Below are positions 6,664-56,391 of a stretch of DNA of 64,000 nt, in pieces. Positions within the stretch are counted from its first letter, which is position 1, and each line of letters opens with the position of its first letter. The DNA is from Prevotella sp. (lineage in GTDB: Bacteria; Bacteroidota; Bacteroidia; Bacteroidales; Bacteroidaceae). The translations under genes were made by a program, and so were the position numbers. The notes under the pieces are model-generated. The model had not been told where the DNA came from. It made no database searches and was given only the letters and a program-made list of their open reading frames with translations. The stretch covers positions 1 to 64,000 of the forward strand of contig JAFZBK010000049.1 in assembly GCA_017561825.1 (NCBI GenBank), in the 5' to 3' direction.

Positions 6664-6700
6664 AAAGAAAGTACAGCTTAGAACTGTACTTTCTTTGTTT
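6664..6700 (+). terminator. Strong terminator after the barrel protein
   Basis: A perfect 13-bp stem (6664-6676 with 6684-6696, AAAGAAAGTACAG and its complement) has a 7-nt loop and runs into GTTTTTCC. The A-rich left arm could also make it work for transcription from the right. Confidence 0.9.
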
Positions 6701-6734: not shown

Positions 6735-6800
6735 TTCCCAGCCTGGGAATTATTTGTTCCCAACGTGGGAACATTTTATTCCCAACGTGGGAATGTTTTC
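6735..6800. repeat. Three-copy 22-bp quasi-palindrome array A
   Basis: Units start at 6735, 6757 and 6779, exactly 22 bp apart. Each is a 15-bp quasi-palindrome (TTCCCAACGTGGGAA in units 2 and 3, TTCCCAGCCTGGGAA in unit 1) plus a 7-bp AT-rich spacer. It lies between the terminator of the barrel gene and the promoter of the DUF59 gene. The reverse complement of the same unit forms array B at 38535-38600. Confidence 0.9.
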
Positions 6801-6872: not shown

Positions 6873-6903
6873 TTTGTACTATCCTCATTTATTTGTACCA
6901 TTG
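6873..6903 (+). promoter_or_regulatory. Upstream promoter-like copy (degenerate -7)
   Basis: TTTG at 6873-6876, a 19-bp spacer and TACCATTG at 6896-6903, one base off the Bacteroidota consensus TAnnTTTG. It lies 81 bp upstream of, and resembles, the functional-looking promoter at 6954-6984, and it runs directly into a hairpin. Confidence 0.5.
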
Positions 6904-6919
6904 GCTCCGCCGAAGGTAC
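6895..6919 (+). repeat. GGCTnCGCC hairpin element, copy H1
   Basis: GTACC (6895-6899) pairs with GGTAC (6915-6919) and GGC with GCC around a 3-nt loop. It overlaps the -7 box of the upstream promoter copy. The same element recurs at 11500-11524, 38673-38697 and 38714-38737. Confidence 0.75.
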
Positions 6920-17421: not shown

Positions 17422-18612
17422 ATGTATGGAAGAATGAAAGAACATCTCACGCAGACACTTGCTGAGATTCGTGAAGCAGGACTTTACAAAGAGGAACGAT
17501 TGATTGAGAGCCCGCAGCGGGCAGCGATTCAAGTGAAGGGACAGGAGGTGCTGAACTTCTGTGCCAACAACTATCTGGGCTTGTCAGACCACCCACGACT
17601 AATTGAGGCTTCGAAGAAGATGATGGATCGTCGCGGCTTCGGGATGTCGAGCGTGCGCTTTATCTGTGGCACGCAGGATATCCACAAGGAACTGGAGACT
17701 GCCATCTCCGACTATTTCAAGACCGAAGACACCATTCTGTATGCGGCCTGTTTTGATGCCAATGGTGGCGTGTTCGAACCGTTGTTCACCGAGGAGGATG
17801 CCATCATCTCTGATGCGCTGAACCACGCGTCGATCATTGACGGCGTGCGCCTCTGCAAGGCTAAGCGCTACCGCTATGCGAATGCCGACATGGCAGAACT
17901 GGAGAAATGCTTGCAGGAGGCACAGGCACAGCGCTTCCGCATTGTCGTCACCGATGGTGTGTTCTCGATGGACGGTAATGTGGCTCCTATGGATAAAATC
18001 TGCGACTTGGCCGAGAAATACGATGCATTGGTCATGGTGGATGAGAGTCATTCTGCCGGTGTGGTAGGAGCAACAGGTCATGGTGTGAGCGAGTTCTTCA
18101 ATACCTACGGACGGGTGGACATCTATACTGGAACGTTGGGTAAGTCATTCGGCGGTGCTCTTGGCGGCTTCACCACAGGACGGAAGGAGATTATCGACCT
18201 GCTCCGCCAACGCAGTCGTCCGTACCTGTTCTCCAACTCCTTGGCTCCTGCTATCATCGGGGCCTCGTTGGAGGTGTTCAAGATGCTGAAGGAGAGCAAT
18301 GAGATTCACGACCGTTTGGTGGAGAACGTGAACTACTTCCGTGACAAGATGATGGCCGCAGGCTTCGATATCAAGCCCACGCAGAGTGCCATCTGTGCTG
18401 TGATGCTCTATGATGCCAAACTCTCTCAGGTGTATGCTGCCAAGATGCAGGAGGAAGGCATCTACGTGACGGGTTTCTACTATCCTGTCGTGCCAAAGGA
18501 ACAGGCTCGCATCCGCGTACAGATCTCTGCCGGACACAAACGTGAACACCTCGACCGTTGTATTGCCGCCTTCATCAAAGTGGGGAAGGAGTTGGGAGTA
18601 TTACATAGTTGA
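17422..18612 (+). CDS. kbl: Glycine C-acetyltransferase (2-amino-3-ketobutyrate CoA ligase)
   Basis: PLP enzyme that splits 2-amino-3-ketobutyrate with CoA into glycine and acetyl-CoA. The 396-residue protein has normal length for the alpha-oxoamine synthase family, with NNYLGLSDHPRL (about 49-60), DESHSAGVVGATGHG (about 206-220) and the PLP-lysine motif YTGTLGKSFGGALGGF (about 235-250). With the divergent SDR it completes threonine to glycine conversion. The 193-bp divergent gap has weak promoter-like boxes only. A 22-bp triad array starts 12 bp after its stop. Confidence 0.95.
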   Translation: MYGRMKEHLTQTLAEIREAGLYKEERLIESPQRAAIQVKGQEVLNFCANNYLGLSDHPRLIEASKKMMDRRGFGMSSVRFICGTQDIHKELETAISDYFKTEDTILYAACFDANGGVFEPLFTEEDAIISDALNHASIIDGVRLCKAKRYRYANADMAELEKCLQEAQAQRFRIVVTDGVFSMDGNVAPMDKICDLAEKYDALVMVDESHSAGVVGATGHGVSEFFNTYGRVDIYTGTLGKSFGGALGGFTTGRKEIIDLLRQRSRPYLFSNSLAPAIIGASLEVFKMLKESNEIHDRLVENVNYFRDKMMAAGFDIKPTQSAICAVMLYDAKLSQVYAAKMQEEGIYVTGFYYPVVPKEQARIRVQISAGHKREHLDRCIAAFIKVGKELGVLHS

Positions 18613-18623
18613 AGTTCCCAACT

Positions 18624-18689
18624 AGCCTAGTTAGTCCCTCTAACCAGCCTAGTTAGACCCACTTATCAGCCTAGTTGAAGGGCGTTATA
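18624..18689. repeat. Three-copy 22-bp array C
   Basis: AGCCTAGTT occurs at 18624, 18646 and 18668, exactly 22 bp apart. In each unit flanking bases make a quasi-palindrome (AACTAGCCTAGTT in unit 1, TAACCAGCCTAGTTA in unit 2). The unit sequence is unrelated to arrays A and B, but copy number and period are the same. Confidence 0.85.
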
Positions 18690-38414: not shown

Positions 38415-38484
38415 GCTCTCCCTAACGAAAGCTTACTCTACCTAAGGTTTAGTATTCTCTCTCTTAGGTATTAGTTTCAATACG

Positions 38485-38518
38485 ACCGTCCCGTAGCGTT
38501 TGTTCGCTGCGGGGCGGT
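38485..38518 (+). terminator. Terminator of the right SusCD operon
   Basis: A 14-bp stem, ACCGTCCCGTAGCG (38485-38498) with CGCTGCGGGGCGGT (38505-38518) including G-U pairs, followed by TTATTATTT. Confidence 0.85.
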
Positions 38519-38534
38519 TTATTATTTCACGATG

Positions 38535-38600
38535 TTCCCACGTTGGGAATGAAATGTTCCCACGTTGGGAATAAAGTGTTCCCATGTTGGGAACAAATGG
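38535..38600. repeat. Three-copy 22-bp quasi-palindrome array B
   Basis: Units at 38535, 38557 and 38579. TTCCCACGTTGGGAA is the exact reverse complement of the core in array A, and the 7-bp spacers also match array A when reversed (CATTTCA/CACTTTA against CATTTTA). Array B is thus an inverted, lightly diverged copy of A about 32 kb away. Confidence 0.9.
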
Positions 38601-38672: not shown

Positions 38673-38697
38673 GTATCTCTGGCTTCGCCGAAGATAC
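38673..38697 (+). repeat. GGCTTCGCC hairpin element, copy H3
   Basis: GTATCTC/GAAGATAC arms enclose GGCTTCGCC. It is followed by TTTCGCTCACTTAATC, which leads into copy H4. Confidence 0.75.
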
Positions 38698-38713
38698 TTT
38701 CGCTCACTTAATC

Positions 38714-38737
38714 GTACTTTGGCTACGCCGAAGATAC
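38714..38737 (+). repeat. GGCTACGCC hairpin element, copy H4
   Basis: GTACTTTGGC and GCCGAAGATAC arms, 41 bp after H3. Between the two copies is a promoter-like CTCACTTAATCGTACTTTG string. Confidence 0.75.
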
Positions 38738-56212: not shown

Positions 56213-56302
56213 CGGTAAAAAACTGACAAATCGTCACTTTCCGCTATCTTTTTGCATAAAAACGCACACAACAAGAAACATTAAACAACAATACCATAAA
56301 TA

Positions 56303-56361
56303 GTTCCAAGCATAGAAACACAATGTTTCTGGGCTTGGAACACAGTGTTTCTGGGCTTGGT
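56303..56361. repeat. Three-copy 22-bp-class array D
   Basis: GTTTCTGGGCTTGG occurs at 56325 and 56347 (22 bp apart), and an inverted, slightly changed copy (CCAAGCATAGAAAC) lies at 56306-56319. The first two units therefore also form one long hairpin (TTCCAAGC with GCTTGGAA). Read on the minus strand it lies between the 3' end of the 56392 gene and the argD promoter. Confidence 0.82.
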
Positions 56362-56391
56362 ACTATATTTATCAACCTGTTTGGTAAATAC

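Follow-up and report, generated by a model that had tools for sequence, protein, structure and literature searches.

Helically phased triple palindromes in Prevotella suggest an undescribed DNA-marking system

Two sites of a Prevotella contig each carry three short near-palindromes in a row at a period of 22 bp, and the question is whether such a triplet is a chance regularity, a repeat that spreads, or a site that is kept for a reader. The window, which is the whole stretch of 64,000 nt analysed here, contains the two sites as arrays A and B (Table 1). Their unit, called F1, is a 15-bp dyad, TTCCCA-N3-TGGGAA. All six near-palindromes of the original prediction were there with intact arms, far from chance. 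Eight unit matches with at most two mismatches were found in the window against 1.32 expected, and eight was reached in none of 100 shuffles. A sequence-independent scan found four tandem arrays of period 22 in the window, A and B included.

Table 1. Arrays and neighbouring elements in the 64,000-nt window
Feature	Position	Strand	Description
Terminator-like stem	6664..6696	.	13-15 pairs with T tail, both strands; between upstream gene and array A; consensus match only
Array A	6735..6793	.	Three units, TTCCCA-N3-TGGGAA, at 6735-6749, 6757-6771, 6779-6793
GGCTCCGCC element	6903..6911	.	Downstream of array A; separate from the array
Third 22-bp-period array	18613..18688	.	F2 type, AACTAGCCTAGTT-like units; begins directly after stop of ORF 17422-18612
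Terminator-like stem	38484..38519	+	15 pairs, 10 G-C; between upstream gene and array B; consensus match only
Array B	38535..38593	.	Three units at 38535-38549, 38557-38571, 38579-38593
GGCTTCGCC and GGCTACGCC elements	38681..38729	.	Downstream of array B
Fourth 22-bp-period array	56298..56376	.	One inverted and two direct units around GTTTCTGGGCTTGGAAC

The F1 unit and its 22-bp phase

The centres of the units are GCC, ACG and ACG in array A and CGT, CGT and TGT in array B, and the comparison of CGT, CGT and TGT with ACG confirms that B is the reverse complement of A. The copies are not identical, since the first unit of array A has the centre GCC. The 7-bp spacers, said to agree, do so in length and not in letters (TTATTTG and CATTTTA in A; CACTTTA and CATTTCA in B, reverse-complemented). 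The two arrays were also predicted to occupy the same slot. An intrinsic terminator is a G-C-rich stem with a run of T behind it. A terminator-like stem precedes both arrays, as claimed; the GGCTTCGCC part of the slot fell away. The GGCTTCGCC elements downstream of array B are an insertion separate from it, and they are independent of the array, as are the GGCTACGCC elements, because they are missing at the orthologous locus in the relatives G390 and G474. They are flanked by two copies of a promoter-like AATCGTATCT stretch.

The whole genome of the host (2.98 Mb in 69 contigs, 88% complete) was searched for F1. It contains 96 exact copies, and the reversed-pattern control gave none. There are 59 pairs with a 7-nt spacer and still 59 when the spacer may be 1-30 nt (period 16-45 bp); F1 neighbours within the search range are therefore always 22 bp apart. 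With three mismatches tolerated in the 24 arm positions there are 62 pairs, just three more; half-decayed pairs are thus almost absent. All 55 spacings were 22 bp in a sample of 34 own arrays, which covers 86 of the 96 exact units (89 units in total, 86 with perfect arms). In 82 foreign loci (L068-L149, 80 named and two viral), 191 of 194 spacings were 22 bp, two were 21 bp and one was 23 bp. The period is thus not a chance regularity, as the 59 of 59 pairs, both sets of spacings and its persistence at B in two relatives attest. The copy number was found to vary from one to six units and is not invariant. Three is the commonest size and not the rule, with 15 of the 34 own arrays; five of the others have one unit, nine two, four four and one five.

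The letters of the unit are kept unequally. Between neighbouring own units, identity is 99.5% in the arms, 74% in the centres and 79% in the spacers. The values for neighbouring foreign units are 99.6%, 56% and 65%, where the arm conservation is built in because most foreign arrays were fetched with a perfect-arm pattern. The centre is usually CGT/ACG or TGT/ACA but variable, and the spacer is A/T-rich.

Because the centre is free, the spacer fixed in length, the half-sites near-invariant and the phase two helical turns, and because arrays persist at some orthologous sites, we read the arrays as selected double-stranded DNA sites for a putative dimeric protein, with three dimers on one face of the helix; we judge the chances that this is right to be evenly balanced. 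One dimer of a candidate sequence-specific protein would occupy each dyad, with a 6-bp half-site on either side of the free 3-bp centre, and the spacing of two turns would usually place three dimers side by side on one face. The three dimers may cooperate, and the role would be chromosomal, as a boundary, a roadblock or an architectural mark. The original prediction had named cooperative protein binding, an insulator or a replicating short repeat; binding of a protein to selected, helically phased sites fits best, and no protein that would bind was found.

Selection for one long hairpin was considered and not adopted. Complementarity between spacers 1 and 2 is lower than after shuffling (2.34 versus 3.18 of 7). 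The outer centres are reverse-complementary in 12 of 131 distinct triples against 6.2 expected (P 0.006), which is a weak signal.

The surroundings of the arrays are mixed. Many flanks are unrelated and some contain common repeat modules. Own F1 arrays at seven loci (L036, L038, L046, L049, L054, L033 and L052) are extended in exact 22-bp phase by TAAGTAGGCTACTTT and TTAGAAGGCTTCTAA units into chimeric arrays. Such continuation by other palindrome families (F2, F3) is present in the composite repeats of the own genome; as a general rule it was rejected, since in other genomes the neighbouring slots in phase with an array exceed those off phase in palindromicity by very little. At L054, L060, L049, L052 and L059 of the own genome, a conserved module, TTGGATTTCATCCCACCTTTTCTCGCCATGGCAAAGCCGAAAC...TTAACGAAAA, lies beside F1 arrays or between them. 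At L042 and L055 the arrays are flanked on their two sides by a GTGTGTCAAAATAAGGTTCAA-like sequence in inverted orientation, which resembles the ends of a small transposable element. MITEs are bounded by terminal inverted repeats, and each copy has a target duplication; no clean empty site that showed such a duplication was found among the array loci.

Distribution of the arrays and of the period

In a scan of 84,980 species genomes, the three-unit pattern occurs in at least 113 stretches. The 80 matches listed all have titles with Prevotella, Prevotellaceae, Xylanibacter ruminicola, Bacteroidaceae or Bacteroidales, and many of the titles name the rumen or another ruminant gut as the source. 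Prevotella is prominent in the rumen. An F1 pair is present in 6 of 301 genomes of a family sample, the own genome included, and in 86 of 398 genomes of the genus with 1 to 77 pairs each. Some loci are the same record across samples (L134/L183, L098/L192, L148/L189), and the counts are therefore not summed. The two viral contigs (L068 and L069, from IMG/VR) share an identical stretch, where the array lies in an 83-codon open frame near an integrase-like gene. At L095 and L117 the right-hand gene is 100% identical and the left-hand sequence differs at the array, a possible rearrangement breakpoint.

The spread from 0 to 77 pairs per genome within the genus, with 312 of 398 genomes having none, resembles a dispersing repeat and counts against the binding-site reading. 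It favours the main rival, a palindromic repeat akin to REP or RPE, selfish or neutral, that an enzyme would copy and scatter, that settles in harmless places including coding linkers, and that is homogenised within each genome, which would give every lineage its own spelling. We regard this as possible rather than probable. Arrays intermixed with other repeat modules fit it as well. In the 88%-complete own genome, however, no canonical RAYT was found, and its one weak Y1_Tnp match lies without an array.

The period itself is wider than F1. Tandem arrays of at least three units of any sequence were scanned with a threshold of 0.68 for 1.34 Mb of array loci and of 0.70 for the other samples. 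In the 1.34 Mb, where the loci were mostly chosen for F1, a few of them are duplicates and periods below 16 bp are dominated by chance, the non-F1 arrays had period 22 in 37 cases and period 21 in 21 cases. Other periods were 16 (three arrays), 18 (eight), 19 (one), 23 (one), 24 (three) and 27 (one), with none at 28-60. The 300 kb scanned of the genome G334 gave period 22 seven times and 21 twice, beside 16 (seven), 18 (two), 23 (one) and 24 (two). G314, a one-contig genome without F1 pairs, gave period 22 seven times in 400 kb, beside 18 (two), 41 (three) and 43 (one). Across 20 genera of the family (353 kb), period 22 was found nine times and 21 six times, beside 16 (one), 18 (three) and 33 (one). 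Shuffled Prevotella DNA contained no tandem array with period 19 or more, and 200 kb of E. coli none of at least three units with period 19-60. The idea that every 22-bp array is palindromic was dropped: 72 non-F1 arrays averaged 4.43 of 6 arm pairs versus 3.93 after shuffling, with a minority individually significant. As the evidence for palindromes in non-F1 arrays is, taken together, unconvincing, the period and not the palindrome is the general feature. Its dominance across a bacterial family calls for explanation.

A plain minisatellite would offer one, if 22-bp units arose by slippage and 22 were a favoured duplication length in these genomes. Periods 22 and 21 indeed dominate the tandem arrays of 16-bp period or more in the family samples, arrays of many sequences that mostly lack clear palindromes, and at one locus (L110 and L118, neighbour gene 96% identical) the arrays have six and four units, a change of copy number by 22-bp steps. 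However, slippage would not spare 12 of 22 positions while the rest drift, nor would it conserve address and frame, and we consider this explanation quite unlikely for F1.

Two other phased repeats were seen. A second family of period 21, with AATAAG...CTTATT units, lies near arrays in several species (L074, L084, L127, L130, L138 and L146). In G314 (L272:17564-17898), TTCCCAAAGTTGGGAA-like units repeat at 41 bp, about four helical turns.

Addresses and spellings of the arrays

The orthologous genes at A and B were fetched from relatives by protein search, independently of the array sequence, and G390 and G474 were the closest relatives found (84% protein identity). At locus B both have three F1 units at the same place with the 22-bp spacing kept. 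Compared with the own array, 36 of 36 arm bases are equal, and two of nine centre and two of 14 spacer bases are changed. The right flank is equal at 76 of 80 positions, and the left flank at 52 of 66 and 65 of 74. The replicating short repeat that the original prediction had also offered is partly borne out by the dispersal of the arrays and the range of their number per genome; it accounts less well for arms that outlast centres and spacers. In G641 and G377 no array is present at locus B, and the upstream sequence differs. At locus A, 29 relatives were fetched and the gene was located in 27, many of them with a different upstream gene; F1 was found within up to 600 bp upstream in none of the 27. 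G474 and G390 have AA(G/C)TATGGCACTT units there instead, two direct ones 22 bp apart and one inverted with its centre 22 bp away (hand count), and this unit is similar to AAACTATGGCACTTT, the degenerate F2 unit found at own loci. The absence of array A from the same site in these two closest relatives supports the selfish repeat and speaks against the binding-site reading.

Arrays often lie at gene ends. Between genes in tandem, 12 of 15 own and 21 of 28 foreign arrays are closer to the stop of the upstream gene than to the start of the downstream one. Orientation was counted with mechanical ORF calls, leaving out arrays in ORFs or at locus edges (31 of 83 foreign, 9 of 34 own). Foreign arrays occupy convergent gaps in 17 of 52 classified cases versus 34 of 182 in the background, and divergent gaps in 7 of 52 versus 51 of 182. 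Own arrays have no orientation bias (convergent 4 of 25, divergent 6 of 25, against 16 of 102 and 25 of 102 in the background). The gene-end orientation bias is clear in other genomes only.

A position behind stop codons would also suit an RNA-level element, in which a triple or long nested hairpin in transcripts blocks 3'-to-5' decay or stalls transcription. Both strands of A and B fold better than all 200 shuffles (z -4.4 to -6.2), a point that also weighs against a purely double-stranded site, and two of three units have a terminator-like score in array A (+ strand) and in array B (- strand). But exact 7-nt spacers are needless for a hairpin, the first two spacers are less complementary than after shuffling, stronger terminator-like stems already precede both arrays, and the foreign arrays between divergent genes lie where no gene-end transcript is expected. 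We therefore hold an RNA element to be unlikely.

Some arrays lie inside genes. Three F1 units make 66 bp, or 22 codons, and keep the frame, and on reading the sequence, the F1 arms cannot yield a stop codon in any frame, which only the centre or spacer can. Fifteen in-ORF loci with in-frame arrays were picked by hand on a domain match or orthologous sequence, with Pfam support for nine of the 15 and for at least one per family. They fall in seven gene families: alpha-L-rhamnosidase GH106 (L071, L098, L124), acyltransferase-3 (L093, L106, L147), an ABC-F-like ATPase (L096), GH92 (L097, L132), CbiA/CobB (L101, L114, L125, L198), an outer-membrane efflux protein, OEP (L191), and a PG_1098/THUMP-like protein (L193). 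Fourteen of these arrays have three units and one has five, with one spacing of 21 bp and the frame open. Elsewhere, among arrays of at least three units with duplicates removed, 59 have three units, 15 four, four five and one six. In-frame arrays across seven gene families are also what a selfish repeat would leave.

The CbiA gene allows the linker to be compared with and without arrays. Orthologs were searched by protein in the genus and matched in 43 of 100 genomes, some only to the array-encoded peptide. In 30 fetched loci, the linker between the two domains contains F1 in two, another 22-bp repeat in seven and a 21-bp repeat in one; no array was seen in the other 20, some of them truncated or out of frame. 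The repeats unlike F1 include AGTCCG...CGGACT, GTCCCAGGGAGGGAA and ACGAG...CTCGT. Linkers with three F1 units measure 141 nt between the chosen anchors, and repeat-free in-frame linkers 129-150 nt in 12 orthologs (L218-L221, L223-L230) and 177-258 nt in four others. In the closer orthologs, 141 versus 129-150 nt indicates that the array replaces the linker and does not lengthen it by 66 bp, which speaks against a selfish repeat, although the four others are longer.

The genome G334 has no F1 pair, and its CbiA has the variant spelling GTCCCA-N3-(T/A)GGGAA. Ten exact and three one-mismatch pairs of this spelling were found in G334, at eight loci. Of the 15 genomes searched, G334 included, G347 has four such pairs, the own genome one and G363 one, and the 11 others have none. 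Five of the eight G334 loci are addresses of F1 in other species (CbiA, acyltransferase-3, vapE upstream, ABC-F and PG_1098). Random G334 positions had an F1-neighbour gene (55% identity) in 145 of 2000 cases, which gives P 9e-5 for five of eight; when CbiA, the locus by which G334 was chosen, is left out, four of seven remain (P about 8e-4, hand arithmetic). Three of the eight are unmatched to an F1 address. Two of these have no match above 35%, and L365 has a 56% relative of a gene near the own array L048 at another distance and was not counted as shared. In alignments, the F1 array and the G334-spelling array of ABC-F and of acyltransferase-3 begin at one and the same codon and share the frame; those of PG_1098 begin seven codons apart and differ in frame. 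What separates the G334 spelling from TTCCCA is mostly the outermost base of one arm, a small shift, and the larger spelling differences are from the CbiA address only.

The same codon across species and spellings is a further point against a selfish repeat and fits the protein-site reading better. Under that reading, many arrays would be kept at fixed addresses (behind stops, in convergent gaps, ahead of vapE and in coding stretches that tolerate them), and the joint shift of half-site spelling at several addresses in at least one lineage would be expected if the sites track a drifting specificity of the reader. More tentatively, the arrays could form a chromosomal address system, in which phased triple dyads at ancestral positions, coding linkers among them, are respelled together with the specificity of the reader, each lineage has its own spelling, and 21-22 bp is the family-wide organising length of tandem arrays. 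A combination is possible, as the repeat may have spread and then become, or used, a binding site. With a protein as the reader, part of the genus would possess a system of marks along the whole chromosome, spelled differently from species to species at unchanged addresses; coding linkers would store a DNA-level signal, and the co-evolution of a DNA reader and its sites would become directly testable. As selfish elements, too, the arrays would give bacteria an unusually clear example of palindromic repeats that sit in frame at the same codons of different species under an altered spelling.

One gene family recurs beside the arrays. When the proteins within up to 3 kb of 117 arrays were clustered, the largest cluster was VapE-like (PF05272; the long form with PF08800) and occurred at 12 arrays, with the array upstream in 12 of 12. 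The other large clusters seem to be widespread families (outer-membrane proteins, hybrid sensors, sigma factors). DUF6078 (PF19555) is near eight arrays. At L033, L104 and L110 the homology begins 1-5 bp from the array, or at a depth of one or two units within the L110 array, which has six, and ends around the DUF6078 gene, with otherwise different surroundings. Such vapE-DUF6078 cassettes in unrelated surroundings would also be expected of a selfish repeat. As a candidate reader, DUF6078 gave a poor AlphaFold model (mean pLDDT 54) and best E values of 0.41 and 0.5 in a PDB sequence search.

The vapE link raises the idea that the arrays are origin- or iteron-like sites of a VapE/BT4734 and DUF6078 cassette, of which the solo arrays are leftovers. 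Several vapE genes indeed have further upstream repeats of about 11-12 bp (L033, L104, L110, L080, L115, L081, L083, L134, L204 and L206; of the types AGACCTAAC, GTAGAGG, ACTCACCC and ATGTAGTTTGC), in some loci inverted on either side of the array, like the iterons of replication genes. Yet at 105 of the 117 arrays no such gene was found within up to 3 kb on each side, and only one of six own VapE genes has an F1 array in the stretch examined; contig ends truncate two of the remaining five. This origin is most improbable.

Comparison with known repeats and sites

No description of such arrays was found in the open-access text searched, and the matches listed for TTCCCA, TGGGAA and Prevotella concern other subjects by title. 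The arrays had been predicted not to fit CRISPR or REP/BIME elements, and this was upheld. CRISPR arrays consist of identical repeats, about 23-50 bp long, that alternate with unique spacers about as long, and cas genes lie close by; 15-bp dyads with 7-nt spacers do not have this geometry. An Rfam family search of the window gave no match. REP/BIME elements are dispersed palindromes, often at gene ends, with neighbouring copies oppositely oriented. F1 arrays are likewise dispersed and often at gene ends, but they have a fixed 22-bp tandem phase and in-frame ORF copies, and their neighbours are rarely opposite: among 131 distinct triples, the first two units have equal centres in 49 and reverse-complementary ones in one. 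REP/BIME is also unsupported because no canonical RAYT (PF01797) was found in the own 88%-complete genome, where the one weak match (344 aa, E 6e-5) has no array beside it. Among the scanned loci, a RAYT-like gene is next to an array only in L083, and a RAYT-like open frame lies at the edge of L185, kilobases from the array; with these two as exceptions, RAYT/REP was dropped as a universal partner.

The nearest described relative found is the Rickettsia palindromic elements, which are described as short palindromic repeats of about 150 bp in ten families, lying in frame in unrelated protein genes (PMC10969869). F1 arrays share with them the in-frame position in protein genes and the occurrence in several sequence families. 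By that description they are set apart by size (about 150 bp versus 15-bp dyads and 59-66 bp per three units), by the strict 22-bp phase with often three units, and by being common between genes too. They further differ in their identical codons across species in two genes and the variant spelling at some shared addresses.

DNA uptake sequences promote the entry of DNA by way of a receptor. Those of Neisseriaceae, as described in PMC3630211, have a lineage-specific, genome-wide spelling with small changes between relatives and a reader that is thought to co-vary. They number hundreds to thousands, mostly as single words with some dyad pairs (PMC3630211). F1 is over-represented and has a variant spelling in G334, and the changing spelling recalls these; the number of copies is far lower, about 100 dyads, and they stand in phased arrays. 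Noc binding sites (consensus TATTTCCC-GGGAAATA) and parS (TGTTTCAC-GTGAAACA) are reported as dyads read by a dimer, with Noc confined to Firmicutes (PMC7383237). The half-site TTCCC/GGGAA is common to the Noc site and F1; in a comparison of the consensus sequences, the ParB/Noc dyad is a contiguous 16 bp, whereas the F1 half-sites are split by A-N3-T and arrayed at 22 bp. PINSR of Prevotella intermedia is described as a lineage-specific intergenic repeat of 188 bp, amplified in one clade and without terminal inverted repeats (PMC4755523). F1 resembles it as a lineage-specific amplified repeat of Prevotella, and by this description the length of 188 bp sets the two apart.
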